A model generated the notes under the pieces. It worked only from the letters and a program-made list of their open reading frames with translations. It was not told the origin of the DNA and did no database searches. 64,000 nt of DNA from a virus, in IMG/VR virus record IMGVR_UViG_3300028025_006304, positions 54,603-118,602 of that record; one strand, given 5' to 3'. Each line of letters opens with the position of its first letter. The stretch's first letter is position 1. Below are positions 37,642-64,000 of the stretch, piece by piece. The position numbers and the translations under genes were made by a program.

Positions 37642-37655
37642 CAAAAAGAAGTTAA

Positions 37656-37772: not shown

Positions 37773-37787
37773 AACCTTTTATTTGAT

Positions 37788-37818: not shown

Positions 37819-37974
37819 TTCCTCAATTAAATCAATATTCTCCTTAAGTAACTGGATCATTCGAATCCTATACCGTTCATCTCTTTCATTTGAAGCTTCA
37901 GATTCAATGTTCTCTAGACAGTCTAGAAGATCGTTGTAAGTGTTTTCAAATCGACAGTAACTCATGTTTGCCAT
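37804..37974 (-). CDS. Small phage protein MSYCRFENT type
   Basis: 56 residues. Opening MANMSYCRFENTYNDLLDCLE matches a short uncharacterised family I recall from many phages (MSYCRFxNTxxDLxDC). The rest is an acidic helix. Role unknown. Confidence 0.7.
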   Translation of the reverse strand: MANMSYCRFENTYNDLLDCLENIESEASNERDERYRIRMIQLLKENIDLIEELDNQ

Positions 37975-38006
37975 AACCTTTGTTTTAATTATTTATTTAT
38001 TATACT

Positions 38007-48853: not shown

Positions 48854-48970
48854 TTACTGTAATTTGTTTATTACTTCGTGGTTACTTTTTAATAGTTTTT
48901 CAAATTTAATCTGTGATTTTTTACTAGTAGGTCTTTTACCAGTTATTCTCTTTTTACTTGAACGTGCCAT
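48854..48970 (-). CDS. 38-residue basic protein
   Basis: MARSSKKRITGKRPTSKKSQ..., very basic. Its stop codon is followed by the next ATG (TAATATGG) and its start overlaps the upstream stop (TAATGG). Possibly nucleic-acid binding. Confidence 0.5.
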   Translation of the reverse strand: MARSSKKRITGKRPTSKKSQIKFEKLLKSNHEVINKLQ

Positions 48971-49116
48971 TACCTACCTTGCCCTCTATAGGACTTTTTA
49001 TAAAGTTTACTATTTTTAAGCTTAGATGTTTTTGTTTTAGAGTGAACACCTGGTCTACTTACTGTTGGTTTTTCTTGGAACGTTGCTGTTGTTTGTGATT
49101 TAATTTTAGCAGCCAT
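48970..49116 (-). CDS. 48-residue basic protein
   Basis: MAAKIKSQTTATFQEKPTVS... ending KKSYRGQGR. Basic with SRPGVHSKTKTSKLK in the middle. It starts the chain of tiny overlapping genes, after the lysin gene and a late-type motif. Virion or DNA-binding role is possible. Confidence 0.55.
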   Translation of the reverse strand: MAAKIKSQTTATFQEKPTVSRPGVHSKTKTSKLKNSKLYKKSYRGQGR

Positions 49117-49154
49117 TTAAACATAAATGTTAAGTTAATAATAACGGACTGCTA

Positions 49155-49162
49155 TAAATATA
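49155..49162 (-). promoter_or_regulatory. Late-type motif before the 48-residue gene
   Basis: Coding strand ATATATTTATAGC, 39 nt before the ATG, overlapping the lysin's end. Confidence 0.4.
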
Positions 49163-49720
49163 TTAAAATTTTTCCTTAAGTTTTGCTGATAATTCTTTAA
49201 TTTTATTTAGATAATTTGGGTCCTCAGCGTAACTATTTCCTAGGTACCTGAAGTATTGGTCTTCTGTTTTGATTTGTTTTAAATATGATGCTTGGTAAAA
49301 TCCATAATCAATAACTGATTGTGTCCAATCCTTATAGTAGGCGTGGTTACGTTTAGTACCTAAAGCAGTTGTAATACGTTGTTTAGCTTCTTTCATACCA
49401 AACAAATTATGATTATACCTAAATATGTTAGATGAATAACTAGCAGATTCAATTTTGGCTTGAGCTAAAACAATATGAGGGAATTTAATGTTTAATTCTT
49501 TCATTAATTCAATTACCTCTTCTTCACTAAATGGTGGGTGATCCATATTAACTAGTAATACTTCTTTTTCATATGGATTTAAGTAATAAATTTTGGTCAA
49601 ACGACCTACACCATAAGCTAGAAATAAGACCAAAGTAAAGATAACCCCGGCATTGAAATAAATTTTATTTAATTTAATTTTCTCAAAAGTTAAACTATCA
49701 CTATTAAATTTGTAAAACAT
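49163..49720 (-). CDS. Membrane-anchored glucosaminidase lysin
   Basis: 185 residues. A hydrophobic segment at residues 24-46 follows a basic N-terminus, a signal anchor. Residues 85-185 carry the glucosaminidase family (PF01832) pattern: the catalytic Glu in LAQAKIESA, then NHNLFGMKEA and QSVIDYGFY. Cuts peptidoglycan glycan chains. The anchor suggests a signal-arrest-release type lysin activated at holin collapse. Confidence 0.8.
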   Translation of the reverse strand: MFYKFNSDSLTFEKIKLNKIYFNAGVIFTLVLFLAYGVGRLTKIYYLNPYEKEVLLVNMDHPPFSEEEVIELMKELNIKFPHIVLAQAKIESASYSSNIFRYNHNLFGMKEAKQRITTALGTKRNHAYYKDWTQSVIDYGFYQASYLKQIKTEDQYFRYLGNSYAEDPNYLNKIKELSAKLKEKF

Positions 49721-49735
49721 AACCTTGGTTTTTAG

Positions 49736-49891
49736 TTAAAATAAATCTAAAAATTTTCCTTTGCTTTTCTTTTCCCCCAATTTACGAAATTTCTCTTCGT
49801 CCTCCAACATTTTGGTGGCAAGTTTATCTAAATGTCTAGATTTAGTTTTTTGATAGTCGTTGACTATTTTATCGTGTTTTTTATGTCTCAT
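49736..49891 (-). CDS. 51-residue charged protein
   Basis: MRHKKHDKIVNDYQKTKSRH... ending KGKFLDLF. Basic/acidic helical protein. Starts over the stop of the HNH-fold gene (ATGA overlap). Function unknown. Confidence 0.55.
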   Translation of the reverse strand: MRHKKHDKIVNDYQKTKSRHLDKLATKMLEDEEKFRKLGEKKSKGKFLDLF

Positions 49892-50529
49892 AATCTAGAT
49901 ACTAAATCAGAACCATCATCTATTTTAGGTGGGTCGTACAAACCTAATTGCTTAAGTTGTTCAAGTTGGTAATCATCCAACTCCCAATTGATAGCCTCGC
50001 TTGTGTTATTTTTAGGTACTGAATCCTCAATCTGAGATATGTCAGCGGTATTAAATACATCGGCTACTGTTAGAAAATAATGGTTGTAACAAAGTACCTG
50101 GAGATTATCTAAACGATAATTCTTGGTATTTTTATCTTTGAAGTTGAGTAGTAGTGGGATTTTGTAATCTGTAATTCGGCGTTCATTAAACCCACACAAT
50201 GTACATTCTTCTTGTAGGTATCCCTCTTCAAATAAGCGCTTTTTAACCTTGGTAGGTGAGAAGCTAGTCATTGGGATGATCCCATTGATCAAGTCTTGTA
50301 ATGGTGGGGTTTTACCGTGATTACCTATCCATTTTTTAATACCCTTACCCTCTTGGTTAAGATGAACCTCAAATAAAGTTTTACCTGTTGTCTCGTCTTT
50401 ATAAAGTTTAGCCCATTTCTTATAGTGAATATAAGATACATTGAGCCATCTAGAGGCTGCACGGTTTGACTTAGTCATACCCATAGCAGCTACTATTTGT
50501 TCTTTAGTAAGTGGTTTTGGTAAAGGCAT
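49888..50529 (-). CDS. HNH-fold protein with HTH, catalytic residues apparently lost
   Basis: 213 residues. N-terminal helices (TKEQIVAAMGMTKSNRAASRW) look HTH-like. Residues about 110-160 carry CTLCGF, then LLLNFKDKNTKNYRLDNLQVLC, the scaffold of HNH nucleases with the CxxC zinc pair and RLDNLQ block. The usual LDHxDG is replaced by LNFKDK, so the catalytic His is missing. It may bind DNA without cutting. Alternatively a close-by His (YNHYF) compensates. Confidence 0.65.
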   Translation of the reverse strand: MPLPKPLTKEQIVAAMGMTKSNRAASRWLNVSYIHYKKWAKLYKDETTGKTLFEVHLNQEGKGIKKWIGNHGKTPPLQDLINGIIPMTSFSPTKVKKRLFEEGYLQEECTLCGFNERRITDYKIPLLLNFKDKNTKNYRLDNLQVLCYNHYFLTVADVFNTADISQIEDSVPKNNTSEAINWELDDYQLEQLKQLGLYDPPKIDDGSDLVSRL

Positions 50530-50531
50530 AA

Positions 50532-50849
50532 TTAAATATCCCCTTCAATACTATCCATATTAACATCTGGGGAGGTCTCATCTGTATCGTAGTTTTGGAG
50601 TTCAGCTTTAGCTCCTTTAGAAATTTTACCTTCACTAACGATATAGTTAATAAATTGTTTTTCTTCCATGATTACAACATCAGTATAGGAGTGATCACCC
50701 TCCCCACGTTGTATGGTTACTCCGCGTTTACGACCGACATCTGAGCAGCTTACACAGTGTTTAGTGTTGGGTAATATTTCAATACGTTTAGGGTGAATGG
50801 GTTCACCACATCCGAGGCATTCTACAATCATAATTTCATTTTGTACCAT
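50532..50849 (-). CDS. DksA/TraR-type zinc-finger protein
   Basis: 105 residues. CLGCGEP near residue 11 and CVSCSD near 32 give C-x2-C-x17-C-x2-C, as in the DksA/TraR family. In that family the finger sits in the RNA polymerase secondary channel. The coiled-coil tip is absent here; the C-terminal half is acidic. It abuts the HNH-fold gene by 2 nt. Confidence 0.65.
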   Translation of the reverse strand: MVQNEIMIVECLGCGEPIHPKRIEILPNTKHCVSCSDVGRKRGVTIQRGEGDHSYTDVVIMEEKQFINYIVSEGKISKGAKAELQNYDTDETSPDVNMDSIEGDI

Positions 50850-50868
50850 ACATATAACCTTTATTTTG

Positions 50869-50900
50869 TAAATATACGAACTATTCTTCGACCAGACAAA
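50869..50900 (-). promoter_or_regulatory. Promoter for the DksA-type gene
   Basis: TTTG-N20-TATATTTAC with GTTCG, then AAAGGTTATATGTATGG at the start. Confidence 0.7.
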
Positions 50901-51273
50901 TTAGCTTATAAAGATCTTCAGCTGTTTCTATTACGAATGCCTCGTCTCCAAAGTTTACAATTTTATCTTCTTCATCTTCAGCTAATGAATGTTCATAAAC
51001 ATACCAAAGAATAACCTCAACTGATTCAGGGGTGAAAGAATAATTGATAAGACCCTCAAGTGATTTAGCGAACGTATCTTCCCAAGACCAAAGATCTAAA
51101 CCAAATTTATCGTTTATTTCTTGAGAACGGGTTACAGCTGTTTTATAGTTATTTACAAAGATAACAAAATTCTTTTTTATTGTTTCTTCAGGTGTAAGAA
51201 TTTCACCTTGTATTTCTACAGGGGTATCAAACATTTTTTGAAAAAACTTTTTAAAATCTTTTTTGGGATTCAT
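50881..51273 (-). CDS. Hypothetical protein (130 residues)
   Basis: The start is set at the Met at 51273 (MNPKKDFKKFFQ), which overlaps the upstream stop as TAATG. A longer frame adds a poor extension. Acidic, helical. Function unknown. Confidence 0.6.
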   Translation of the reverse strand: MNPKKDFKKFFQKMFDTPVEIQGEILTPEETIKKNFVIFVNNYKTAVTRSQEINDKFGLDLWSWEDTFAKSLEGLINYSFTPESVEVILWYVYEHSLAEDEEDKIVNFGDEAFVIETAEDLYKLICLVEE

Positions 51274-51443
51274 TAGTATAATCCTTTTTTCCCTACAGCC
51301 CAAATTTTTAGGAACTCTTTAAGAGGTAATTGTTTCCATTTAGCAAATTCTTTTGCTGCTTCTAGTCGTGAACGGGTAAAATGATATTTACCTAAAATTT
51401 CTTTAGATTCGTCTTGACGTATATAATAAAAGCAATAGCTCAT
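51273..51443 (-). CDS. 56-residue basic protein
   Basis: MSYCFYYIRQDESKEILGKYHF... with KWKQLPLKEFLK and a Tyr-rich start. Both ends overlap neighbours (ATGA, TAATG). Not related to the other MSYC-type protein beyond the start. Function unknown. Confidence 0.55.
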   Translation of the reverse strand: MSYCFYYIRQDESKEILGKYHFTRSRLEAAKEFAKWKQLPLKEFLKIWAVGKKGLY

Positions 51444-51754
51444 AATCTGGATTTTAAGGTTACTAATTCGCTACATCTAGAATAGTCTTCTAAATTTTCA
51501 TAATGTTTAATAGCTTTATTTAAGAATATTTTATAGTGTTCTTTTTTAATAACTACTCTTACATTATAATTTTGTATACTAAATACAATACATTCACTTT
51601 TATTTTTACGAATAGCTTGCTTAATGGCCGCTACCGCACTACCAAACATAAATGTAACAAATTCTTCTTGGGTAGCCAATTCTAATAGTTCTTCTGGATC
51701 TTCATATTTGATTTCTAAATCGAGAGGAAACTCAAGTTTTAATTTTTGTTCCAT
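51440..51754 (-). CDS. Hypothetical protein with UVR-like tail (104 residues)
   Basis: Acidic N-terminal half, Val/Ile-rich strand near residue 65. Ends HYENLEDYSRCSELVTLKSRL, similar to the UVR-like tail of the protein at 28021-28458. Function unknown. Confidence 0.55.
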   Translation of the reverse strand: MEQKLKLEFPLDLEIKYEDPEELLELATQEEFVTFMFGSAVAAIKQAIRKNKSECIVFSIQNYNVRVVIKKEHYKIFLNKAIKHYENLEDYSRCSELVTLKSRL

Positions 51755-51759
51755 GGAGA

Positions 51760-51767
51760 TAAATATT
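51760..51767 (-). promoter_or_regulatory. Late-type motif before the 104-residue gene
   Basis: Coding strand AATATTTATCTCC, six bases before the ATG. Overlaps the end of the GT gene. Confidence 0.35.
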
Positions 51768-52815
51768 AGATCTTAATTAATTCATTTTGATATTCTTGGA
51801 GAGAATTTATAGTAATTTTTAAATTACCTAAATTGAATTGGCCTATTTCTCCACTATCTTTAATTATTTCATTTAATTGAACTATATAGTTAAGATCTTG
51901 TTGAGTAAAGGTATTACCGTCTACTTCTACAATAATATCACCACCACCATTAAACCAAAATTTCAAAATATTTTCAATTTCTGGATTATTGTTATTTATA
52001 ATTAGTTTCTTTTTATAAACTGGAAATAATACTGGGTGTTGATATTCGTCATTTTTAATCCAGCTACCCCATTTATTAATATAATGCTGGAAAGCTTTAT
52101 GTTTCATGTTATGGAATGCCTCATCTTGGGTAACTTGTTCTATTCCATCTTGAAATTGACCTCCTCTACAAGTTAAGTGGTACACATATGCTTCCCAGGT
52201 TTGAATTAATTTATAACCATTTAAAATAAATCTATTAAAAATATCTGAATCTTCATGGTATGAATGGAATGTCTCATCATGCATTCCTATAGAAGTAATA
52301 TCTTCTTTGTAAATAGCCCAAGGTGCAAATATTCCTCGAGTAGTTTTATCTTTATTATCTTGAATAGTTTTTTGAACAAATAAATCAAATTCTTCCTGTT
52401 TAAAATCTTCAGGATACATCCCAAAATCTTCTACAATTTTTTCTAGCCCTTTTGGATGAAGAGGTGGTTCAATACGAGTGCCAGATATTACTGAGAGGGG
52501 TTTTAAATATTTTAGGATTGCAGTATCAAATCCTTTACCCATATACATGTCGGCATGGAACATACAAACAATTGGGGAGGTGGCGGATTCAATACATCTA
52601 TTATACCCATAAGCTATACCACGAGGTGTGTCAGTTTCATTTACAAGATATTTTACACCCTGATCATCTAACCACTTTTGGGTCCCATCATTATCGGAAT
52701 CTACATAAACAATAATATCAAATTCTTGGGATGAGTTTTCTTTAATTGATTTAATACTACTTTTAAGATATCTTAAATTATTTTTACTTGGTATGCAATA
52801 TGTTATTTTACCCAT
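51766..52815 (-). CDS. Glycosyltransferase family 2-like (349 residues)
   Basis: GT-A core: TYCIPSKNNLRYL at the N-terminus, IIVYVDSDNDGT near residue 35 and MFHADMYMG near 90 as the metal-binding D-x-D-like motif. A long C-terminal extension follows. Uses a nucleotide sugar to glycosylate an unknown acceptor. Overlaps the next GT gene by 13 nt. Confidence 0.75.
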   Translation of the reverse strand: MGKITYCIPSKNNLRYLKSSIKSIKENSSQEFDIIVYVDSDNDGTQKWLDDQGVKYLVNETDTPRGIAYGYNRCIESATSPIVCMFHADMYMGKGFDTAILKYLKPLSVISGTRIEPPLHPKGLEKIVEDFGMYPEDFKQEEFDLFVQKTIQDNKDKTTRGIFAPWAIYKEDITSIGMHDETFHSYHEDSDIFNRFILNGYKLIQTWEAYVYHLTCRGGQFQDGIEQVTQDEAFHNMKHKAFQHYINKWGSWIKNDEYQHPVLFPVYKKKLIINNNNPEIENILKFWFNGGGDIIVEVDGNTFTQQDLNYIVQLNEIIKDSGEIGQFNLGNLKITINSLQEYQNELIKI

Positions 52816-53657
52816 GTTACTTCTTTTAATCCTATTATCATTCTATATTCATTAAATACAGGGATTCCGTGCCATTTCTCAATCCATTTTAATTTATTTT
52901 TAGCTTCTGCTTCTTGTTGTCTTTGAGAACTTTGGTTATCATTTTCTTCTAACCGATGAGAACCTCTAGCTCCAAAATGCCAAACTAAACTTTTACTGGT
53001 TAGTACAAATTCGTATCCTGCTTGGGTCATTCTAAGAAATAAATCCATATCATCCCAACTAGTAGGAGCAAATCTGGGGTCATTACCTCCTATTTCATCC
53101 CAATCTTTTTTTCTAATTAGACCACTTACGCCTTCTCCTTTTGGAATTTCAAAATCATTTAATTCAATGAATTGTTTAGCTATTTGTTCGAACCCTTCTA
53201 TATCAAAATCATTCCAATATGCCCCTAAATAATCTTTAGGTACTATAATCGTACCTGGATAGGTTTGACTATTAAGAAACATTTGAGGTTCTATTCTATG
53301 AGAACTAACCCATAATTTTTTATTTGGATATTTTTCAAATATATCAAAACAAGCTTTATCCCAATCTTTACTAACATAAAAGTCTGAATGGAGGAACATT
53401 ATATATTCTGTTTGTACCTTTTTAGCACAAAAATTCATTCCACCTCCAATACCAACTGGTTCAGGATTTTTTTCAATATAATAGTCTAAATTATAATCTT
53501 GATGATAAGCATCTAACCATTCATCAGTTCCATCATCACAATTTTCAGCGTGTATAATAAATGGAGCGTCTTTAAAATAACTATTTTTTCTAACAGATTC
53601 AACTGCTAGTTTTAGATATTCTAAGTTATTATAAGTTGAAATACAAAAACTAAGCAT
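52803..53657 (-). CDS. Glycosyltransferase family 2-like (284 residues)
   Basis: SFCISTYNNLEYL at the start, IIHAENCDDGTDEW near 35 and FLHSDFYVS near 95 (D-x-D-type). GT-A fold. Overlaps neighbours, suggesting coordinated glycan assembly with the flanking GTs. Confidence 0.75.
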   Translation of the reverse strand: MLSFCISTYNNLEYLKLAVESVRKNSYFKDAPFIIHAENCDDGTDEWLDAYHQDYNLDYYIEKNPEPVGIGGGMNFCAKKVQTEYIMFLHSDFYVSKDWDKACFDIFEKYPNKKLWVSSHRIEPQMFLNSQTYPGTIIVPKDYLGAYWNDFDIEGFEQIAKQFIELNDFEIPKGEGVSGLIRKKDWDEIGGNDPRFAPTSWDDMDLFLRMTQAGYEFVLTSKSLVWHFGARGSHRLEENDNQSSQRQQEAEAKNKLKWIEKWHGIPVFNEYRMIIGLKEVTWVK

Positions 53658-54375
53658 GGTAAGTAGAATATTTTTGTCTTAATTCTAAAAATTTATCTTT
53701 ATGAGGAGAATTGAAAAAGTATTGATGCATATTAGCATCGGCTTGTCTACAAAAATCAGATTCTTTTATTTCAATAGCTCCGGTTTTGAAGGTTTGACTT
53801 ACTAAGTGAGTTAAAGTTATATTATCACTAACCCCGGTTTTAAATCCGTTTTCTTGAGCAAATATACCAGCATAAAAATCGGGACCCCATCCTAAAAATA
53901 ATTCGTTTGGAAATTGTTTAATTGCTTCAACAAATTTACGACTAAAAATAGGACACATAAAATCTATAAAACCTACCTCTCTAACTGATTTAGTTCCCCA
54001 ATTCCACATCTGTTTCCAATGGCATTGGTCTTTACCTGAATTGGTGATAGATGGAGAATATAGATCTAAATTATGTTCTTTAATTTCACTTAACATGTTT
54101 TCAATTAAACGCGGACCATGGAATATAAGATCATTATTGAACAAAACCAAATAGTCTTGATCAGTATATAAAAAGTAATCCATGATTACATTTAACCCAC
54201 CCCCAAAAAATAAATTCTCTGGGAGTTGATGGGTTGTGGATTTAGCTAATTCTTTAGTAGAACCATTATCTACTACCATTAATTCATGTTGAGTAAAAGT
54301 AGTATCTCTTTTTAGCTGTTCAATTAAATTATCAGTTAATTCGGGTTGATTATAATTAAGGGTGGTTAATAACAT
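53650..54375 (-). CDS. Glycosyltransferase family 2-like (241 residues)
   Basis: LLTTLNYNQPELTDNLIEQL, VDNGSTKE near 36, and LVLFNNDLIFHGPR near 77, a GT-A N-x-D variant. Shorter than its neighbours. Acceptor unknown. Confidence 0.75.
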   Translation of the reverse strand: MLLTTLNYNQPELTDNLIEQLKRDTTFTQHELMVVDNGSTKELAKSTTHQLPENLFFGGGLNVIMDYFLYTDQDYLVLFNNDLIFHGPRLIENMLSEIKEHNLDLYSPSITNSGKDQCHWKQMWNWGTKSVREVGFIDFMCPIFSRKFVEAIKQFPNELFLGWGPDFYAGIFAQENGFKTGVSDNITLTHLVSQTFKTGAIEIKESDFCRQADANMHQYFFNSPHKDKFLELRQKYSTYHA

Positions 54376-54381
54376 TTTAAA

Positions 54382-55131
54382 TTATTTTATATTAACTTGG
54401 AATTCATTTACATTTCTACAACCCAACTGATCAGAAAATACTCCTTTATATTGACCATAAAAATTAGTAGGGAAACAATATCCTATTGTATTATACATTT
54501 GACTGTATATAGCAGAATCTAAGTTTCGGGTTTTAGGATAAGGAAACCATATATTATTATCTGTAAAACAACTTCGTCTAAATGATACTTGAGATGTATC
54601 ACATGCACAATCTGGATTAATTGGGGTAGTATGTTTATTTAAATCCACAATTGCTCCCATATGTTTTACTCTATCCACATTATCTGATGCTTGTAAATAG
54701 ATTTCTAGTTCGGGATTATAATAAAGTACCTTGCTATAAGTCCATTGTATGTTTGGATTACTGGTATAGTATTTGTCTAAATCAGTTAAATAAGTAGAAA
54801 CTATAGCATCATCATCACAAAGCATTACTACACAGTCAGCATCAGATTCTTGTATTGCAATATTAGCATATTTACCAAAGATACTTCCTCCTTGATTAAC
54901 TTTATCTTTTACTGATTGATTAATATCGTAATATTTAAATTTATCTATACATGCAGTTCCTTCAATATAATTAGTTATATCTACTCCTTTTGTATCTTCA
55001 GAATCATTTATTAGAGCTACTTCATAATTATCATACTCTAAAGATGCAATACTATGTAATGCATTTTTTACTATTTCAGGTCTGTTATAATAAAAAAGTA
55101 ATATAAGAAATTTAGTATTATTAGTTTCCAT
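54382..55131 (-). CDS. Glycosyltransferase family 2-like (249 residues)
   Basis: FLILLFYYNRPEIVKNAL, ALINDSEDTKGV near 35 and VMLCDDDAIVS near 95 (DDD metal site). Middle Cys/Ser segment (CACDTSQVSFRRSCF). GT-A. Overlaps the isomerase-like gene by 11 nt. Confidence 0.75.
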   Translation of the reverse strand: METNNTKFLILLFYYNRPEIVKNALHSIASLEYDNYEVALINDSEDTKGVDITNYIEGTACIDKFKYYDINQSVKDKVNQGGSIFGKYANIAIQESDADCVVMLCDDDAIVSTYLTDLDKYYTSNPNIQWTYSKVLYYNPELEIYLQASDNVDRVKHMGAIVDLNKHTTPINPDCACDTSQVSFRRSCFTDNNIWFPYPKTRNLDSAIYSQMYNTIGYCFPTNFYGQYKGVFSDQLGCRNVNEFQVNIK

Positions 55132-55843
55132 ATATGTTTGTAAATTTTTTTGTACTTTCTATTATATCTATTAAATTTAATGCTTCGTAAGTTATTAAAT
55201 TACTATATCCTAGCTTTTTCAATTCATTCGAAAAATCAACGTGGGGTTGGCTTGGAATTAGGGGTCCTAAATTTTTTTCTGAGATGTGGATATGATAAAT
55301 CTTATCTAAATAGTTGTTTAAAGTATCTAATATGTTTACCTGCTCTTCTATTAAATTATGAGTATCTATCATAGTTTTTATATTAGTAAAATTACCGGCA
55401 TTTATAAAAGCTACAATCTCATCTACATTAAAAAAATATTTTCCTTGGTATTTTTTGGCATTAGGTTCAATACATAATATTAGTTTTTTATTCCTTAATA
55501 TTTCATCTAATATACTAAAATTTTGTATAAGTTTTTTAAGATCAAATACATTACGACAAGTTGGAGACCCTAATACTAATGTTTTTATACCCATATTACA
55601 ACACTTATCAGTAAATGTTTCCATATAAGGTAAAAAATTCTTATCTAAAAAACAAGTTACATTAGAGTTATATAGTATAGATTGAGTACTAAGTGTTGGG
55701 ATATTTGGAAGTTCTTGTTTATTTTTAAATTTAGAAAAAACAATCTCTAAATTATTTATACCTAAACTTCTTAATTCAGCATGTACTTCTTTTAGCTGTA
55801 AGTTACTATTAAATGCCAAATGGCTTATCCCTAAATTCATCAA
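55121..55843 (-). CDS. Sugar-phosphate isomerase/epimerase-like TIM-barrel
   Basis: 240 residues. GISHLAFNS at the start, LCIEPNAKKY near 145 (metal-binding Glu), TMIDTHNL near 182 and YHIHISEKNLG near 212 match the xylose-isomerase-like TIM-barrel family. It probably isomerises or epimerises a sugar for the adjacent cluster. Substrate unknown. Confidence 0.65.
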   Translation of the reverse strand: MMNLGISHLAFNSNLQLKEVHAELRSLGINNLEIVFSKFKNKQELPNIPTLSTQSILYNSNVTCFLDKNFLPYMETFTDKCCNMGIKTLVLGSPTCRNVFDLKKLIQNFSILDEILRNKKLILCIEPNAKKYQGKYFFNVDEIVAFINAGNFTNIKTMIDTHNLIEEQVNILDTLNNYLDKIYHIHISEKNLGPLIPSQPHVDFSNELKKLGYSNLITYEALNLIDIIESTKKFTNIYGN

Positions 55844-56573
55844 CTAATTTTTTTATTTCATTTAAAACAACCTCAGAGCTTTCTATATAACCTGATGTAG
55901 TATGGACTGTTTTATAATTGTAATATACTGAGAGGGGGGTATGAGGGGTAGTTTTAATTTTTTTAGAGAACAACTCAATTATTTTAGACGTAGGTATAGG
56001 TTCAGGAAAAAGATTATAAGTACCAGAAGTATTAATTTGTTGGATATTTTTAATTAAATTATCTAAATTATACCATTGATACGCTGAGTTTTTGTCTATA
56101 TTACTTACATTATTATCTGTAAAAAGATCGTAAAGGATATTTTTTTTAATTCTTTTACTGAATAAAGCAGGAAGTCTATATACCTGTATATTATTACAAT
56201 TTAATTCTTTAATTAACAATTCAAATAAGAATCTATTACTACCGTAATGAAGTTTACTAAATGTAGGTGTATCTTCTTCGGTAACACCATTATTACATTC
56301 GGTGTACACATCTATAGTTGATATTAGTACAATTTTTTTATAGATAAATGGTTTTATATAATCAAAAATTTTATACAGATTTTCAAAATCTTTTAAAATA
56401 TCTAGATTAACTTTCCATTTTGTTGCAGGTAAACATGCTAAGTATATTTCAGAATTGTTTAGATCATATTGTTTAATAGTCTCTATATTTGAACTATTAA
56501 ACATTAAATCAAACTTAATACCCTCTTGTAGTGTTTGTCCTACTAATCCTGTATTACCTATTAGTACCTTCAT
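55809..56573 (-). CDS. SDR-family nucleotide-sugar epimerase/reductase-like
   Basis: 254 residues. The N-terminal GNTGLVGQTL is the Rossmann NAD(P) motif. STIDVY near 112 and YGSNRFLFE near 136 give the Ser/Thr-Tyr-x3-(K/R) region, with Arg in place of the usual Lys. A reduced SDR, possibly with altered activity. Overlaps its neighbours by 20-35 nt. Confidence 0.65.
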   Translation of the reverse strand: MKVLIGNTGLVGQTLQEGIKFDLMFNSSNIETIKQYDLNNSEIYLACLPATKWKVNLDILKDFENLYKIFDYIKPFIYKKIVLISTIDVYTECNNGVTEEDTPTFSKLHYGSNRFLFELLIKELNCNNIQVYRLPALFSKRIKKNILYDLFTDNNVSNIDKNSAYQWYNLDNLIKNIQQINTSGTYNLFPEPIPTSKIIELFSKKIKTTPHTPLSVYYNYKTVHTTSGYIESSEVVLNEIKKLVDEFRDKPFGI

Positions 56574-57552
56574 ATATATGTTTTTTTACATCTTCAACAA
56601 TTTTATAAATGCCTTGTATTTTTCCAGTAAAGCAATTTATAACTTTAGTGTCTATTACATTTATAACTGGGTGTCTATCGGCTGTTTGGTTATAGGTTTT
56701 TGATTTGATTGCTGTAAAATAAGACTTATATTTAAAATCTTCCAGGAAATTAGGATAAATATTACATACTTTTTTCTCAATAAGAGCTGAAATGTTGTTT
56801 ATTAGTTGATTATTAATTGAATATTCTTTATGTAATAATTCATTTAAATCTGTTCCTTTACATAGAGGGGTGTATTGCACATCAGTTACAGTATAGAGAT
56901 TTTGATTATAAGGATAAATTGAGAAAAAATTACCGTCTACAACAGTAAGTGCATCAAATCCTAAATCTTCTTTTATTTTTTCATATACTAAACTTATAGT
57001 AAGTTCATAATAAGATTCTATAGTTTCATCTTTAAGGTAATTATTAGTACAGTTTATAACCAAATCATACTCCTTAGTAAGAGTATTGGGGTTTATAACT
57101 TGTTGATATATTAAGTTATCTTTTAATAATTCTTTAAAGTACTTTTTTAATTTTATAGCATCTATATACATTTCTCCGGTTGCAATTGCTCCTTGAATAT
57201 TCACTACTTCTGGTAGTTTAATCTCTGTAAACTCTATATTATCTGCAAGTAATATATTTTTATAGGTTATTAAATCTATATCAGATTCTTTAGCGACTGC
57301 ATATATATTTTTAGGTACTGTAACTACAAATTCTCCATACTCTTCTACAAATCGAGTAAAAGTATCTTTACATAAAACTCTTGTTCTATGATTTCTGGGG
57401 TAATGGAATCCCTGATGAAGTCTGTTTTGATTGTGAGAAGATGCTAGCTCAAATACATCTGATGCTTCATATAAATGTACTTGATGGGTGTCTTTTAACA
57501 CTTTGGTTAAATGACATCCTACCCACCCAGCTCCTATTATTGCAATCTTCAT
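56554..57552 (-). CDS. FAD-dependent oxidoreductase
   Basis: 332 residues. GAGWVGCHLTKVL at 7-19 is the dinucleotide-binding GxGxxG motif and YEASDVFELASSHNQNRLHQG follows like a DAO/amine-oxidase-type enzyme (quoted as YEASDVFELAS and NQNRLHQG). It presumably oxidises a sugar or amine for the cluster. Identity uncertain. Confidence 0.65.
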   Translation of the reverse strand: MKIAIIGAGWVGCHLTKVLKDTHQVHLYEASDVFELASSHNQNRLHQGFHYPRNHRTRVLCKDTFTRFVEEYGEFVVTVPKNIYAVAKESDIDLITYKNILLADNIEFTEIKLPEVVNIQGAIATGEMYIDAIKLKKYFKELLKDNLIYQQVINPNTLTKEYDLVINCTNNYLKDETIESYYELTISLVYEKIKEDLGFDALTVVDGNFFSIYPYNQNLYTVTDVQYTPLCKGTDLNELLHKEYSINNQLINNISALIEKKVCNIYPNFLEDFKYKSYFTAIKSKTYNQTADRHPVINVIDTKVINCFTGKIQGIYKIVEDVKKHIYEGTNR

Positions 57553-57559
57553 ACAATTA

Positions 57560-58378
57560 TTAACTCATTAAACTTATAAAATAGTTAATATCTTCACTTA
57601 GATCTCTTGTATTAGCTTGCCATTCTCTTACCCATCTTGTGGTTTCAACTTCATCCATAAAATGTTCATAACCTAAATTTTGTTTACCATTTTCTGGGTT
57701 GATGTTTTTCTGTATGGTTGTCATACGTTTTAGTGTTACATCATTAAATGGGCAAAATCTATAATATACTAGTACAAAATCCTGGTTAATTGCATTATAA
57801 TCGTGATAATGTCTGCCTAAAGGATATGTAATTCTATCTAAGTTATGCAAAAGCCTTAATCTACGTGTAAGATATCCTGTATTTTGGGCTTTTATGTGCA
57901 TATCTATTCTCCCCCCATGACTTATTTCTTCATCAGAATATTTTATTTCATCTTTATAATGAATTCCATGTACTTTTTGCTTAAATATATCTTCGTTTAC
58001 ATCAGGATGTATACCTTCTTGTGAAGGGTGTTCTACCATATTAAACGCTGGGATGAGTAACTCTGTAGGTTCACTAATTGTGTCTAATTTTTTATAGTTA
58101 CCTACTAAAAATTCTGTAGTGCTTAAACACATTTTCCATCCGGGATGATTGCTTTCTATATCTTCAATTTCCCTATCCATAACTAAGGCATCTAGTTTTT
58201 CATTACGGCTAGGGATTACTTCCCAATCAGGACAAATTTCTTTTATAATCTCTACAGATCTGTCTGTTGAATTATAATCTACAATAATTCCATGATCAAA
58301 ATATTTTTTATGATGTTTTAACCAAAATGGAAGTAAATATTCTTCATTACGTATATGTGAAACTAATGTCTTTTTCAT
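57560..58378 (-). CDS. Glycosyltransferase family 2/92-like (272 residues)
   Basis: TLVSHIRNEEYLLPFWL and IIVDYNSTDRSVEII are GT-A/Glyco_tranf_2_4 signatures. A GWKMCLSTTEFLVG (motif ST-E) replaces the usual DxD. C-terminal residues about 150-240 carry His/Tyr/Arg-rich motifs (LGRHYHDYNA). Probably adds a sugar in the same pathway. Confidence 0.65.
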   Translation of the reverse strand: MKKTLVSHIRNEEYLLPFWLKHHKKYFDHGIIVDYNSTDRSVEIIKEICPDWEVIPSRNEKLDALVMDREIEDIESNHPGWKMCLSTTEFLVGNYKKLDTISEPTELLIPAFNMVEHPSQEGIHPDVNEDIFKQKVHGIHYKDEIKYSDEEISHGGRIDMHIKAQNTGYLTRRLRLLHNLDRITYPLGRHYHDYNAINQDFVLVYYRFCPFNDVTLKRMTTIQKNINPENGKQNLGYEHFMDEVETTRWVREWQANTRDLSEDINYFISLMS

Positions 58379-58396
58379 ATGTATTATTCGTTATTT

Positions 58397-59623
58397 TTAT
58401 TTATAAAATTCTGATCTTAAGATTGAGTATATTAAAGAATCTATGTATTCTTCTTTTTTCTTAACATCTTCTCTTTTTATGCCTTCTAATATAAAACCTA
58501 ATTTATGATATAAATGGATTGCTCGAGCATTTGTTGATAATACTTCTAAAGATATTTTATGTAAGTTATATTTTTTAAATAAGAAATTTAAAAAACTTAA
58601 ATAGACTAAATATCCTAATCCTTGTCCTGTGAAGTCAGGGGAAATATCACAACCTACATAGATATTATTATTAATAGAATTATAATTAGAAGTTCTAAAA
58701 TATCCCACATCAACCCCAAGATAATTTATAATAAAATACTCAGGTGAAGTATCCTTTATCCATTTAGTTGTTTCTGTTATAGTAAATGTTCTAGAATCAT
58801 GTAAATAAGTATCTGCATATGTGTTTCTGATTTTATTAATAAATCCTGCATCACTTTCTTTTACAGTTCTAAATTTAAATAAATTATCTACAGATTGAGC
58901 AGGTTGAATAACTTCTTTTTCTTCTTTATTTCCATAATAGATTACAATATCGGATTTATTAGGATCTTCTGTACTTTCTAAAAAAGGTATACAAGTAGTA
59001 TCTGATACATCTTTTATTTCATATTTTTCTAACAAATACTGTAAATACGTAATTTGATCTGAAGTACCTACTAAATATTCTGAATCATTCGTATCAGGAG
59101 ATAATTTGAATATTGTTTTATAATTTTCATAAGCCCACTTAGCTGCAGGGGATGAAAGTAATCCATTGCTTATAGATGGGTGGATTCCGTTGTGGTGAGT
59201 AAAGTTTACTAATTGCCCTACAAAACATACATTAGGATCCATTTCTTTTTGGAAAACTTTATAAAATTCATCTACAGAAGGTAGATAGTCATCTTCTATT
59301 AAGAAAAAATATTCTGGTGAATCTTCTAATGATGCTATTATTGCTTCATTCCACGCACCATAAGAAAGATTTTTATTAGACCTAAATATAACTTCAATAG
59401 GAATTTTACTATTGGATTCTTGAATTATAGGAAGTACCCCTTGATCTATCATATGATTATAGTGGTTAACTACAAATATAATTTTTTGTACCTCAGGATT
59501 ATTTAATTCATTTAATTTTTGTATATGTTGTTTAACAAAATGATATATATCAACTTCCCAAAATTTATTATAAAGTTTAGAGCGTCTTTTTCCAAAAAAT
59601 GTAGATACAATGTATGTTACCAT
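58397..59623 (-). CDS. Glycosyltransferase-GNAT acetyltransferase fusion
   Basis: 408 residues. Residues 1-235 are GT-A-like, with LIEDDYLPS near 112. Residues 245-405 are GNAT: GQGLGYLVYLSFL is the acetyl-CoA motif A and ALHLYHKLGF-type (AIHLYHKLGF) ends it. One polypeptide could acetylate an amino sugar and transfer a sugar. Next to an aminotransferase gene, so acetamido-sugar synthesis is likely. Confidence 0.75.
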   Translation of the reverse strand: MVTYIVSTFFGKRRSKLYNKFWEVDIYHFVKQHIQKLNELNNPEVQKIIFVVNHYNHMIDQGVLPIIQESNSKIPIEVIFRSNKNLSYGAWNEAIIASLEDSPEYFFLIEDDYLPSVDEFYKVFQKEMDPNVCFVGQLVNFTHHNGIHPSISNGLLSSPAAKWAYENYKTIFKLSPDTNDSEYLVGTSDQITYLQYLLEKYEIKDVSDTTCIPFLESTEDPNKSDIVIYYGNKEEKEVIQPAQSVDNLFKFRTVKESDAGFINKIRNTYADTYLHDSRTFTITETTKWIKDTSPEYFIINYLGVDVGYFRTSNYNSINNNIYVGCDISPDFTGQGLGYLVYLSFLNFLFKKYNLHKISLEVLSTNARAIHLYHKLGFILEGIKREDVKKKEEYIDSLIYSILRSEFYK

Positions 59624-59624
59624 A

Positions 59625-60818
59625 TTACCATCCTTTTTTAATACACTCTACAATATATTCTCTTTCTTCAGGAGTAACCCACCAACCTACAGGAATAGAA
59701 ACTACTTTCCCAATTATTTTGTTTAATGTGGGTAAAGCAGATTTAAATTCTCTAACACAAGAATGTTTATCATTACGTTCATGAACCTGAGAGACTACGA
59801 TGTTACATTCTTTCATATGCTTGTAAAAACCGTCACGGTTTTCTACTAACATAGAATAAATCCAAAATGCTGACTCATGTCCTTCTTCACGTTTTAATAA
59901 AGTTACTCCAGGTGTGTTTTGCAAATGTTTATCATAATAAGCTGCGTTTTCTTGATGTTTTTTTACAATGTTATTAGCATGTTTTAAATTTTCAATACCT
60001 ACTGTGGCACAGACATCATTCATATGGAATTTATAACCCCATTCTTCAATATCAGCTTCACATCTAAAATCTTTACGATTAGAATCTCTATCAATACCAT
60101 ACCAACGAAGTAATTTAGACCTATTATATAATTCTTGATGGGGTAAAGTTAAAATACCCCCATCAATAGCAGTAATATGTTTAATGGCTTGTAAAGAATA
60201 CATAACCATATTGCCATGATTACCTAAATATTTTCCTTTATACTTAGAACCAAATGAATGAGCCCCATCTTCAATTACTGCAGGTTTAAAACCATACATT
60301 GATAAAGCTTTTTGTTGGATTTGTTTTACTCTATCTAAATCATTAGGATAACCCCCCCAATGGACTAACATAATAGCTTTAGTTGTAGGAGTTATTTTAC
60401 GTTCTAAATCATCTAAATCCATATTAAGTGTAGTAGGATCAATATCAACCCACTTAATCTTCAACCCATTAGCTAAAATAGGCCAATTTGAAGCTGTACA
60501 AGTAAGAGCCGTAGCTAAAACTTCATCACCAGGTTGTAGTCCGGGCCAATTATTATCAACATTAACAACACCATGATAAATTTGAGAAGTTTTTTTAGGT
60601 GTTTTAAGCAAATGTAGTGCTAAATGTAAACCTGAAGTGCCTGAATTAAGGGTAACTAGTTTATCAACTTCAAGAAAATCTTGAAGGGTTTTTTCAAGTT
60701 CCTCAACTTTAGGTCCTTGTCCTATATATCCACTATTTAATACTTTAGCTACTTCATCAGCAGCTGTAGGTGCCATGTGAACTTTAAATAATTGTATTGG
60801 TTCTTTAAGTTTTTTCAT
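59625..60818 (-). CDS. DegT/DnrJ/EryC1/StrS sugar aminotransferase
   Basis: 397 residues. NSGTSGLHLALHLL near 58 binds PLP, IEDGAHSFGS at 182-191, and SLQAIKHIT holds the PLP Lys near 213. This family transaminates nucleotide-bound keto-sugars to amino-sugars. The neighbouring GNAT domain would then acetylate the amine. A dedicated dehydratase is not seen in the window, so the host or another segment supplies the keto-sugar. Confidence 0.85.
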   Translation of the reverse strand: MKKLKEPIQLFKVHMAPTAADEVAKVLNSGYIGQGPKVEELEKTLQDFLEVDKLVTLNSGTSGLHLALHLLKTPKKTSQIYHGVVNVDNNWPGLQPGDEVLATALTCTASNWPILANGLKIKWVDIDPTTLNMDLDDLERKITPTTKAIMLVHWGGYPNDLDRVKQIQQKALSMYGFKPAVIEDGAHSFGSKYKGKYLGNHGNMVMYSLQAIKHITAIDGGILTLPHQELYNRSKLLRWYGIDRDSNRKDFRCEADIEEWGYKFHMNDVCATVGIENLKHANNIVKKHQENAAYYDKHLQNTPGVTLLKREEGHESAFWIYSMLVENRDGFYKHMKECNIVVSQVHERNDKHSCVREFKSALPTLNKIIGKVVSIPVGWWVTPEEREYIVECIKKGW

Positions 60819-61441
60819 AATGTACTATAATAAGCGTTTTGTTTTTCCTGACGTTCAATATCTTTATGATGTTCCAAAGCGAACTCTATTTCTAATGGTA
60901 ATATAGCATGAGTTTGATATCCTTCTAATACCTCATGTACTTTATTTTTCCACTTAATTTTTTTATCATTAGCATATATCCGCCATTGAAGGTCAGGCCA
61001 ATTAACTCTACCATGATTATCTACAATCCACCCCCATTTTTGGATATGTTCTTGGGTTATACCTTTAACTGTATTTACTCTAGGTACTCTTAAAACATCT
61101 ACTTTATTGTTTTCAAGAATAATAGGTAAATATTGCATTAGATATAAATTAGGCATTTCATCAGCATCAATCTGGAAGATATAATCTCCTAAACAGGCTT
61201 CAGTTAAAGCATTCTTCATATTAGCAAAATGCCCATCAAAATGATAATGAATAAATCTAAATTGAGCATATGTCTCAGAAGATTTAGCTCTTAAATATTC
61301 TTCTACTTGTTTAGAACCATTGTTAGAATCGTAGAATACAACTATCTCATCTTGCTTTCTTTTATTTTCAATTAAGAAAGGAAGGAGACGTTGTATTTCT
61401 ACTAATTCATTACAAACTGTTATAGCGTAACTAAGTTTCAT
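60815..61441 (-). CDS. Glycosyltransferase family 2-like (208 residues)
   Basis: The start is set at the Met at 61441, immediately after the upstream stop; the longer frame overlaps it. SYAITVCNELVEI, IVVFYDSNNGS near 38 and FQIDADEMP near 93 (DxD) are GT-A motifs. WGWIVDNHGRVNWPD follows. Likely works with the aminotransferase product. Confidence 0.75.
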   Translation of the reverse strand: MKLSYAITVCNELVEIQRLLPFLIENKRKQDEIVVFYDSNNGSKQVEEYLRAKSSETYAQFRFIHYHFDGHFANMKNALTEACLGDYIFQIDADEMPNLYLMQYLPIILENNKVDVLRVPRVNTVKGITQEHIQKWGWIVDNHGRVNWPDLQWRIYANDKKIKWKNKVHEVLEGYQTHAILPLEIEFALEHHKDIERQEKQNAYYSTL

Positions 61442-61442
61442 T

Positions 61443-61889
61443 TTATTCAGGTAATACACCAATGTAAGTTAAGGCTTCCATAAACTCATTTTCTGGGAAA
61501 TGGGTTAAAGTAGTCATGTCCATTTTGTAGTCATATTCTTTACCTTTTCCTTTAAATTTAGTTTTTTCTTCTTCAGACATAAGAGTTGCTTTTACAGCGG
61601 CCCAATTCCAATTTTGGCTATTAGTACCGTCAGCAAATACCATTCCTTTATCTGGAAGGTTAACTACTGAAGGCATCCAAATAGTTCCATTATCATCTTC
61701 ACCCATTAGTTCTTTATACAACTCAGGAAGCACTTCCATTTGTTGCTGTAGAAATTCAGTATCACGTTTCATAGCTGTATTAGCTTGGAAACCACAACCA
61801 TAACAAAAATAAAGCTTTACATCTTGGTTTACTTCTTGAACATAACAAGCATCTGAGCCGCAACGTTCACATGTAGTTAAATTATCCAT
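61443..61889 (-). CDS. Zinc-ribbon hypothetical protein (148 residues)
   Basis: Two CxxC pairs: CERCGS at residues 7-12 and CYGCGF near 29-34. The rest is acidic and helical, without known motifs. Located between glycosyltransferase genes; overlaps the upstream GT4 gene by 8 nt. Function unknown. Confidence 0.6.
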   Translation of the reverse strand: MDNLTTCERCGSDACYVQEVNQDVKLYFCYGCGFQANTAMKRDTEFLQQQMEVLPELYKELMGEDDNGTIWMPSVVNLPDKGMVFADGTNSQNWNWAAVKATLMSEEEKTKFKGKGKEYDYKMDMTTLTHFPENEFMEALTYIGVLPE

Positions 61890-63174
61890 TTACTTTTTGT
61901 AGTTTAGGGAGTTCTAATTTAGGTAATTGTAATTGAATTTCTTTAGGAAATTCAGGAATATATTGAGTTAAAGTTTGATCTACTTTTTCATACATTTTAT
62001 CCCAACTAAATTCGTTTTTACTTTTATAAGCTTGACGTTTAGCTCCGTCTGTATAATTTTTATAGTTTTCAAACATATCTTTAAGATAATGTCCTACTTG
62101 GGCGTAATCAACATTAAACCATTGAGATTCAGCAATCACCCAATCATTTACAGCTGATGGTCCTACTGGTTTAAGTTCACCTTTTAGAGCTATTGTAAAA
62201 TTAGGATCTAAAAATTCAACTTGAGCTGACCAACCTGAAGCTATAATTGGTTTTTTAGTTAAACTAAATTCAAGTAATGGGCGACCAAAACCTTCACCTT
62301 TAGTTAAACTAACCATTGCTTTTACTTTAGAATGATTATATAACTCATTTACTTCTGAGTCAGTAAAATCGCCATGAAGTAGATAAATGTTAGGTAAATC
62401 TTTAGAATTAACTGATTTTTTAATTTTATTAATCTTATCTAAAATAACATCTCGATCCATATAAGAAGAACCAGCACCACTTGTTTTCAAAATTAGAGCG
62501 GGTTTATTTTTCTTATTTTTAAATATTTCATAAAAAGCTTTAACTAACAAAGATACATTTTTTCTATCTTCACCAAAATCACCTTGTGTCCAATGACCTA
62601 CAAATAGATAAGCAAATGATTCTTTAATTGAATCTAAATTAATAGTTTTAATTTGGTTTTGCTCAATTACTTTATATAAATCTGTATTAGCACCCTCAAA
62701 AATAACTTCAATAGGAGTTGTAAGTTTTAAGTGACCCTGAGTTTGACCTTGTGGATTTTTAATTTCATAATTCATTGATTCAAAAGTCTTTTTAGCAAAA
62801 TCCGAAGATGTAATAACAAGATTCATTCTGTTACAACCCTCAATCCATTCACCTTTAACAGCTGTAGTTTCAATTCCAGCTGTAATTCCAATATTATATT
62901 TCCCTACAGGTTGGAATTCATTAGGGATAGTAATTTGAGCCCAAATTTCAGGTTGTTGAGCTAATTTGGGTTCTGCCAAAATATGTGGTTGTAAAAATCC
63001 CCATTCTTCTTTATGATCTTCAATAAAGTTCCAAGGTGTAGCACCCCAACGTTGTGGTAAGATTTTTACATCATACTTATCAGTCTTAATAATTGCTTTA
63101 ACAATATCTCTAGAACGTGCCCCATAACCACTATAGGTGTCAATTGGGCAACTTATTACAAAAACTGGTTTCAT
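61882..63174 (-). CDS. Glycosyltransferase family 4/1-like (430 residues)
   Basis: GT-B fold. The N-terminus shows ISCPIDTYSGYGARSRDIV. The C-terminal half carries LTKGEGFGRPLLEFSLTKKP, the E-x7-E sugar-nucleotide motif (E of EGF, E of LLE). Transfers a sugar to an unknown acceptor. Overlaps the next GT gene by 1 nt. Confidence 0.75.
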   Translation of the reverse strand: MKPVFVISCPIDTYSGYGARSRDIVKAIIKTDKYDVKILPQRWGATPWNFIEDHKEEWGFLQPHILAEPKLAQQPEIWAQITIPNEFQPVGKYNIGITAGIETTAVKGEWIEGCNRMNLVITSSDFAKKTFESMNYEIKNPQGQTQGHLKLTTPIEVIFEGANTDLYKVIEQNQIKTINLDSIKESFAYLFVGHWTQGDFGEDRKNVSLLVKAFYEIFKNKKNKPALILKTSGAGSSYMDRDVILDKINKIKKSVNSKDLPNIYLLHGDFTDSEVNELYNHSKVKAMVSLTKGEGFGRPLLEFSLTKKPIIASGWSAQVEFLDPNFTIALKGELKPVGPSAVNDWVIAESQWFNVDYAQVGHYLKDMFENYKNYTDGAKRQAYKSKNEFSWDKMYEKVDQTLTQYIPEFPKEIQLQLPKLELPKLQKVNG

Positions 63175-64000
63175 TAATATACTAATTTATGGTTTAAGAC
63201 TGGTTTTTCAAATTCGTTAGCATTGATAAGTTCATATTTTTCTCTTGGTTCCCAAGTGTTAAATAATTTATCAGTATAAGTTATAAAGCGATTAGCTTGG
63301 TGTTTTGAGGTAAATCCTGCTTCATCACTTGTAGCCCATTTATAACCTTCCATTCCTCTAGCTTGACGTTCTTCTTTAGATAAATTATATACTTCAGTTA
63401 AACGTTCAGCTGCATCTTCCCAACGACAACGATCATCAAAAATATAAGGAGTTGGAATAGAACCTACTATAGATAAATTAGATGGATAGACTGGGAAGGC
63501 CCAAGCACCATGTTTTTTATAAGTACCTCTATGGTTTGAAGGGAAATCAGCATCAAAATCAATCCAAGTACCATCTTCAAATTCAAAACGCATTTGATCT
63601 TGCATACCACCTGTTACGTTAGCAATAATAGGAGTACCTGTTAATAATGCTTCTGTAAGTGATAATCCCCAACCTTCGTTTGAAGTAAGTAGAATTTGAA
63701 TATCTGCTAAATTATAAAGATAATTTAAAGCTGATACATCTAATTTACCTGGGGTAAAGATGATATTGTAATCTTTAGGAACTAGTGTTTCGATTACAGC
63801 ATTTAAATCAGTACCATGTTCACTAACTTGTTCAGTATGAAGAACTAATACAACTTTTTCTCTCTGTTCAGGAGTTAAAGACTCTACAAATTGACGATAC
63901 GCCAAGATTGTATCTGGGATTTGTTTACGGCGAATATTTCTTGAGTTAAAGAATACCATAAACTCATAATCTTTACCTTGGAATAAATTTTTCTTAAAAT
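63174..64000 (-). CDS. Glycosyltransferase family 4-like, partial (N-terminus outside window)
   Basis: The visible C-terminal about 275 residues continue open to the right edge (coding continues upstream of the internal Met at 63959). LTSNEGWGLSLTEALLTGTP contains the E-x7-E motif of GT4 enzymes. FNSRNIRRKQIPD is the family's R-K-x segment. Acceptor unknown. Confidence 0.75.
   Translation of the reverse strand, partial: FKKNLFQGKDYEFMVFFNSRNIRRKQIPDTILAYRQFVESLTPEQREKVVLVLHTEQVSEHGTDLNAVIETLVPKDYNIIFTPGKLDVSALNYLYNLADIQILLTSNEGWGLSLTEALLTGTPIIANVTGGMQDQMRFEFEDGTWIDFDADFPSNHRGTYKKHGAWAFPVYPSNLSIVGSIPTPYIFDDRCRWEDAAERLTEVYNLSKEERQARGMEGYKWATSDEAGFTSKHQANRFITYTDKLFNTWEPREKYELINANEFEKPVLNHKLVY

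Follow-up and report, generated by a model that had tools for sequence, protein, structure and literature searches.

The 64,000-nucleotide window analysed here comprises bases 54603-118602 of the linear 118,602-base IMG/VR virus record IMGVR_UViG_3300028025_006304, and carries at its right edge, which is the contig end, a large cluster of sugar genes. We find that this cluster consists of a conserved four-gene anchor followed by a cassette that is exchanged between related phages, and it is very likely that the locus is polymorphic in this sense. The best overall explanation, held with about even confidence, is a polymorphic phage glycosylation locus in which the anchor would found a glycan and the cassette would vary it, likely on a virion protein. 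The literature searched yielded no account of a glycan locus organised in this way, with an anchor and swappable cassettes. The cluster comprises 14 minus-strand open reading frames (ORFs) running from 51766 to the contig end. Neighbouring ORFs overlap or lie no more than 18 nt apart, hence they can be considered a single operon, the first gene of which is cut off at the contig end. Related loci and contigs compared with the window are denoted by L-numbers (L006, L096 etc.). The anchor, the exchanged interval and the flank beyond it are as follows.

63174..64000, minus strand: GT4a, GT4-family glycosyltransferase, first gene of the operon (PF00534, 2.8e-10, above cut-off)
61882..63174, minus strand: GT4b, GT4-family glycosyltransferase of 430 aa, conserved anchor (PF00534, 1.3e-6, above cut-off)
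61443..61889, minus strand: Zn, conserved anchor protein of 148 aa with a CxxC...CxxC zinc-ribbon-like start (alignment and AlphaFold2)
60815..61462, minus strand: cGT2, GT2-family glycosyltransferase, last anchor gene (PF00535, 1.9e-6, above cut-off)
51755..60812, no strand: swapped interval, a hypervariable cassette replaced en bloc in L096 (blastn)
48895..51754, minus strand: conserved downstream flank with h104, h140, a DksA/TraR-type zinc finger, an HNH-type gene and a glucosaminidase (75% DNA identity to L096)

The exchange is seen most directly by comparison with L096. In a blastn comparison, L096 DNA is 86% identical to the window over 60813-63998 and 75% identical over 48895-51754, with no match between. 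The window's 9.06 kb is replaced there by an unrelated 5.9-kb set containing two FkbM methyltransferases, two glycosyltransferases, a methyltransferase-like gene and an epimerase. The swap begins and ends at gene boundaries, namely where cGT2 meets DegT and where h104 starts with its first base, and the DNA identity of cGT2 to L096, L095 and L094 stops at 60813-60827. In L006 and L063 the DegT gene alone is 85% identical to that of the window and the anchor 72-76%, hence single genes move too. The guanine-plus-cytosine (GC) content of the cassette (window 54001-60000) is 0.27-0.28 and lies below the 0.315 of the anchor, in keeping with recent exchange.

Relatives were sampled in two ways, by the DegT aminotransferase and by GT4b, and are encoded on 192 and 110 viral contigs respectively; the preliminary description of this DNA, which held that phages rarely carry such a set, was thus wrong for this lineage. 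Among the GT4b-sampled loci the constant part is GT4a-GT4b-Zn-cGT2 and the downstream part varies. Every such locus of sufficient length has the anchor, as does Flavobacterium phage immuto (MW353175), an Immutovirus and myovirus of 160 kb. With a counterpart defined by at least 40% identity, locus pairs with 85-99% identical GT4b have counterparts for 22.6% of cassette ORFs versus 66.5% of ORFs upstream of the anchor, falling to 7.7% versus 46.3% at 65-75% and 3.4% versus 37.8% at 55-65% GT4b identity, figures that are descriptive since locus pairs are not independent and some cassettes are bounded by distance only. Cassette sharing is below 20% in 46 of 65 close pairs, and the pair L132/L139 (93.7%) shares none of 11 cassette ORFs and all 3 flank ORFs. 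DegT was also considered as a core gene; its apparent conservation of 72-89% is an artefact of sampling by DegT, and sampling by GT4b shows the opposite.

An all-ORF comparison reveals the phage to be a distant relative of immuto with the same gene order. The identity to immuto is 55% for the major capsid protein, 62% for terminase, 52-64% for portal and 53% for tail sheath, with their order conserved, and by these comparisons the source, a large aquatic tailed phage, is an Immutovirus-related myovirus. Approximately 40 kb of immuto has no counterpart in the contig, which is incomplete, hence the absence of a gene from its 118.6 kb is weak evidence. Within the anchor, GT4a lacks the N-terminal ~200 aa at the contig end (relatives are about 477-480 aa), is 55% identical to immuto 49172-50614 and opens the locus in relatives too, while GT4b is 58% identical to its immuto counterpart. 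The Zn protein has C7 and C32 invariant in a 43-sequence alignment, and its AlphaFold2 model has a predicted local distance difference test score (pLDDT) of 94, with no fold match in the PDB at E<=0.001.

The genes of the cassette, in the order of transcription, are listed below.

59625..60818, minus strand: DegT sugar aminotransferase, AtmS13/CalS13 type (PF01041, 1.1e-72)
58889..59623, minus strand: GTx, predicted GT-A-like N-terminal domain of a fusion protein, with invariant SYG.W and EDDY (AlphaFold2 model against BFVD)
58397..58888, minus strand: GNAT acetyltransferase, C-terminal domain of the fusion (PF13420, 8.1e-12)
57560..58378, minus strand: GT2e, GT2-like glycosyltransferase travelling with the trio that follows (PF13704, 8e-6, just under cut-off)
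56554..57552, minus strand: FAD-dependent (DAO-family) oxidoreductase of the trio (PF01266, 2.9e-7)
55809..56573, minus strand: Rossmann/SDR-type NAD(P)-dependent enzyme of the trio (homologues)
55121..55843, minus strand: TIM-barrel sugar isomerase/epimerase of the trio (PF01261, 6e-9)
54382..55131, minus strand: GT2d, GT2-family glycosyltransferase (PF00535, 3.6e-5, above cut-off)
53650..54375, minus strand: GT2c, GT2-family glycosyltransferase (PF00535, 1.1e-7, above cut-off)
52803..53657, minus strand: GT2b, GT2-family glycosyltransferase (PF00535, 4.8e-16, above cut-off)
51766..52815, minus strand: tGT2, GT2-family glycosyltransferase, last cassette gene (PF00535, 2.8e-12, above cut-off)

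Gene classes were assigned with Pfam/NCBIfam, the SDR via homologues only. All the classes named in the preliminary description are present on the minus strand, and its count of at least eight glycosyltransferase-like genes becomes eight genes plus a ninth GT-A-like domain fused to the GNAT; the remainder are the DegT, SDR, FAD oxidoreductase and TIM-barrel genes and the zinc-ribbon protein. The claim of a near-complete amino-sugar pathway does not hold, as neither NTP_transferase, Epimerase-family (PF01370), GDP_Man_Dehyd, Polysacc_synt_2 (PF02719) nor UDP-glucose dehydrogenase (PF03721) matches were found in the incomplete 118.6-kb contig. With no nucleotidylyltransferase, 4,6-dehydratase or UDP-glucose dehydrogenase in the contig, the 4-keto sugar would have to be supplied by the host or by genes in phage DNA that lies outside the sequence.

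The nearest solved sequences to the DegT protein are PDB 4xau/4zwv (405 bits), titled 'putative aminotransferase', which we take to be AtmS13, and CalS13 (4zas, 362 bits); the next family scores 118 bits. The lysine that binds pyridoxal phosphate (PLP), K213, is present in YSLQAIKH and conserved in the alignment of relatives. Judged by these scores, the enzyme is of the AtmS13/CalS13 type, known from antitumour-antibiotic pathways, and not a PseC. The in vitro substrate of CalS13 is reportedly TDP-4-keto-6-deoxyglucose. According to a review (PMC10951976), the C-4 amine of the AT2433 aminopentose is postulated to be introduced by AtmS13. The predicted product of the phage enzyme is hence best given as a nucleoside diphosphate (NDP)-4-amino sugar, hexose or pentose. 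A pseudaminic acid pathway was rejected, as PseC (205 of 423.5 bits) and PseH (65 of 93.1 bits) fall far below the curated cut-offs and PseB (PF02719) is absent from the contig. The neighbourhoods of the bacterial DegT homologues L091 and L092 contain no AtmS-like sugar pathway, an NTP transferase lying beside the L092 gene only.

Of 72 testable relatives, 43 have a GNAT gene no more than 1.5 kb downstream of the C4-type DegT (directly adjacent in 38), which supports the reading of the cluster as a phage glycan locus for an N-acylated amino sugar. In the window the fusion protein (58397-59623) is a single open frame of 408 aa with the GNAT at residues 250-400, and its AlphaFold2 model has a mean pLDDT of 82. 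The best named model for the GNAT half is PseH (7.6e-18, under the curated cut-off), and Foldseek matches include SpeG/spermidine acetyltransferases as well as PseH. The N-terminal half has no Pfam match, profile-profile comparison with GT2 families was not significant and a PDB profile search was negative; its AlphaFold2 model matches viral glycosyltransferase models in BFVD at ranks 9, 23 and 37, on which basis the domain is predicted to be GT-A-like. The GT-GNAT fusion proposed earlier is recurrent, with fused homologues in L025, L060, L043, L051, L058 and L059, separate domains in L012-L018 and a reversed order in L053/L067. The pairing has thus arisen more than once, which supports a functional link. 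In L028 (11149-12405) the gene is two ORFs although near-identical to the intact L025 fusion, the split being a frameshift or assembly error. Scans of viral sequences with exact peptide patterns of the fusion protein and the FAD enzyme returned none, the patterns being too specific, and relatives were identified via local comparison instead.

The SDR of the trio (55809) has no Pfam match of its own. Its L019 homologue, 33% identical, matches PF01370 (3e-6), and further homologues, with E down to 1e-19, are plasmid proteins annotated as NAD-dependent epimerase/oxidoreductase. The TIM barrel matches the 5-keto-L-gluconate epimerase IolO model (1.4e-12) and TM_0416 in the PDB (1.4e-8). GT2e is 63-79% identical in L019, L025 and L028, each time beside the trio, and copies of GT2d 44-66% identical occur in other cassettes. 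Homologous trios are found on three bacterial plasmids, from Sagittula, Cereibacter and Psychrobacter (L175, L176, L177), where they are accompanied by a GtrA- or SMR-family protein (small flippases), a GT2 and a multi-helix protein. This is the layout of three-component periplasmic glycosylation (PMC11127046). Unlike the plasmid trios, the phage trios have no GtrA/SMR or multi-helix partner. The literature search yielded nothing on an SDR-TIM-FAD trio with a GtrA/SMR partner as a sugar-modification module.

Across relatives, clustering of the 837 cassette ORFs of 109 loci gave 268 clusters. In a random set of 110 cluster representatives, most are sugar epimerases/dehydratases, glycosyltransferases, methyltransferases, hexapeptide acyltransferases and aminotransferases. 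The L006 cassette encodes at 4586-6708 a GDP-mannose 4,6-dehydratase (432 bits against an equivalog cut-off of 415), together with a RfbH/ColD-like DegT in which His replaces the PLP lysine. This combination in a phage cassette points to what is probably a 3,6-dideoxyhexose route.

In the mechanism we propose, GT4a, GT4b, the Zn protein and cGT2 would assemble a shared base or linker. Its acceptor would be cytoplasmic and is most likely a structural protein of the virion, and the downstream exchangeable cassette would supply and attach variable outer sugars. The AtmS13/CalS13-type DegT would aminate a host-supplied NDP-4-keto sugar (6-deoxyhexose or pentose) to yield an NDP-4-amino sugar, the GNAT fused to the GT-A domain would N-acetylate the amine, and transfer of the N-acetylated amino sugar would fall to the fused and adjacent GT2 enzymes. 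The SDR/TIM/FAD trio presumably makes a second modified sugar, used by GT2e/GT2d. Recombination at gene boundaries replaces cassettes, sometimes single genes, and would leave close relatives with different glycans in the manner of bacterial O-antigen loci.

The site of action was addressed by a survey of membrane helices. None of the 1220 ORFs from 132 loci encodes a protein with at least three predicted helices, and the window cassette proteins have 0 in all cases; with the same counter E. coli K-12 Wzy scores 6, Wzx 9 and the immuto holin 4. Neither the GtrA flippase and multi-helix GT-C transferase of a Gtr module nor a Wzx/Wzy-type flippase and polymerase was found in the surveyed loci, the E. 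coli K-12 control being positive. Taken together with the phage trios, this lack of membrane partners indicates a cytoplasmic acceptor. It also bears on the main rival, modification of the host surface, in which lipid-linked O-units or capsule units would be altered on the cytoplasmic face and exported by the host flippase/polymerase, blocking superinfection or adsorption to debris. Pelagimyophage hypervariable glycosyltransferase islands have been interpreted in this manner (PMC7029224), the cassette content resembles that of O-antigen loci, and the bacterial homologues of the trio occur in surface-glycan settings with GtrA/SMR. However, both the Gtr-type and self-contained Wzx/Wzy routes are absent, the phage trio stands without membrane partners, and a lytic infection leaves little time for exchanging a surface, such that we consider this explanation unlikely.

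Hypermodification of DNA, with the glycosyltransferases placing sugars on modified phage-DNA bases as protection against nucleases, appears distinctly unlikely. Phage glycosyltransferases attaching diverse glycans to DNA have been published (Pyle 2024, as cited in PMC12619734), the acceptor would lie in the cytoplasm, and DNA-modification genes occur in several relatives. Yet the contig has a single PF00303 gene, a thymidylate synthase with the canonical dUMP-type PFN motif like that of immuto, and a hydroxymethyl-pyrimidine acceptor is not seen, a weak argument given the incomplete contig. QueC occurs in 10 of 27 records tested, immuto included, and represents with the immuto DpdA a different modification; the canonical thymidylate synthase and the 7-deazaguanine genes of relatives thus make sugars on DNA pyrimidines less likely. 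Nine glycosyltransferases and two sugar routes moreover exceed what base modification needs. The 7-deazaguanine pathway of immuto, with FolE, QueD, QueE, QueC, QueF and DpdA, was noted in L086 (immuto, 1-4000) and L087.

A soluble or small-molecule glycoconjugate (a decoy, anti-defence metabolite or antibiotic-like amino sugar) is suggested by the grouping of the aminotransferase with enzymes of AT2433 and calicheamicin biosynthesis (for the AT2433 pathway, PMC10951976), but no aglycone-making genes are present and both the anchor of two GT4 and one GT2 enzymes and the O-antigen-like repertoire point to an oligosaccharide, rendering it very unlikely. Neutral mosaicism, by which the cassette would be a hot spot of passenger host genes with no shared function, can be considered highly improbable, for few genes are common between cassettes but a single biochemical theme is enriched, the genes are intact and operonic, borders coincide with gene borders and the anchor is conserved alongside.

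The preliminary description had left capsid, DNA and host surface as possible targets. The membrane survey argues against a phage-run host-surface pathway, the thymidylate synthase and 7-deazaguanine genes argue against a pyrimidine sugar, and a virion protein, the simplest acceptor, remains the best guess. It is also the least certain part of our proposal, with the balance at best tipped slightly in its favour. Several points weigh against the proposal as a whole. Soluble glycosyltransferases can act on undecaprenyl-linked O-units using the host flippase and polymerase, and a lack of membrane proteins is thus compatible with a host-surface target through borrowed host export. No virion glycan was reported for this lineage in the literature searched, and the Zn protein matches no known fold. 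Furthermore, the substrate of DegT cannot be read from its sequence, and the GT-A assignment of the fused domain depends on a predicted model. With the virion protein as acceptor, we tentatively suggest, at somewhat less than even confidence, that tailed phages of aquatic bacteria carry serotype-like virion glycans: the GT4-GT4-Zn-GT2 anchor would act on a virion protein, and the cassettes, for which hundreds of gene families form the pool, would be swapped at gene borders under diversifying selection, so that close relatives have chemically different particles.

Two further loci concern the distribution of the anchor. Contig L090 (PBPJ01000021.1), binned as a Woesearchaeota metagenome-assembled genome, has the phage anchor and DegT in order and is almost certainly a misbinned phage contig. 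L173, from the cyanophage isolate Microcystis phage Mel-JY01, encodes a GT4b relative (47%) in a glycosyltransferase cluster that, like the one in immuto, has a PD-(D/E)XK gene nearby, and the range of the anchor may hence extend beyond Flavobacterium phages. The flavobacterial promoter motif TTG-N17-23-TANNTTTG was not enriched in the sequence (11 versus ~12 expected) and is uninformative on the host. Elsewhere in the window, 36001-38000 displays a GC skew of -0.49 at a GC content of 0.288, far beyond the remainder.

Phage glycosyltransferases are usually reported singly and assigned to DNA or host lipopolysaccharide (LPS) by habit. In the present case an entire locus, its anchor constant and its sugar genes interchangeable, is traceable over more than 100 phage contigs, and an aminotransferase subfamily of antitumour-antibiotic pathways is now placed in environmental phages. 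If the acceptor is indeed the virion, these phages would display their own variable surface sugars, which would matter for adsorption, for how host defences recognise phages and for phage ecology. The cultured relative immuto, the host of which is Flavobacterium strain LMO8, makes the acceptor question testable.

Hypervariable glycosyltransferase regions and virion glycosylation are each already known in tailed phages (PMC7029224; PMC12619734). By analogy, the nearest working precedent would be the nine-gene Mimivirus cluster (R141/L136/L142), in which, according to the available text of PMC4691112, UDP-viosamine is made and N-acetylated (aminotransferase L136, acetyltransferase L142) and decorates the virion fibres. 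The likeness lies in a PLP sugar aminotransferase, a 4-amino acetyltransferase and glycosyltransferases; the Mimivirus sugars reach the particle. Mimivirus is, in contrast, a giant eukaryotic virus with its own 4,6-dehydratase, the same portion of text describes no such cassette swapping, and the phage DegT is of the AtmS13/CalS13 type. AtmS13 and CalS13 are the closest solved sequences by about 245 bits, and the phage enzyme keeps the PLP lysine. They belong to actinomycete antibiotic pathways with a dedicated dehydrogenase and decarboxylase (PMC10951976), a trait of those pathways and not of the aminotransferase subfamily; neither partner (PF03721, PF01370) occurs in the phage contig, itself incomplete.

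In mycobacteriophages, glycans are reported on capsid and tail-tube subunits (Freeman 2023, cited in PMC12619734), and the soluble phage-encoded glycosyltransferases proposed to act on virion proteins resemble those described here. The accessible text of that source mentions no nucleotide-sugar pathway or cassette system, and virion glycans of the present phage are a prediction. Pelagimyophages and cyanomyophages, likewise T4-like myoviruses of aquatic habitats, have a hypervariable island with many glycosyltransferases and sugar genes, but that island also contains tail-fibre genes and has been interpreted as a means of modifying host LPS (PMC7029224), whereas in this phage a four-gene glycosyltransferase anchor borders a pure sugar cassette, away from tail genes. 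The immuto locus at 49-60 kb shares the anchor order, the DegT type (59%), a tGT2 counterpart (39%, 58717-59988) at the same end, and a flank with dksA and HNH in the same order. It differs in its middle, which contains a methyltransferase, a mannosyltransferase-like gene, a second DegT, a NeuD/PglB/VioB-family acetyltransferase and an epimerase, and is annotated in the record without interpretation. Gtr O-antigen glycosylation is approached by the plasmid homologues of the trio, which lie beside GtrA/SMR, a GT2 and a large membrane protein (PMC11127046); the phage differs in having no membrane component. Bacterial Wzx/Wzy loci, with conserved flanks around exchangeable sugar genes, work alike.

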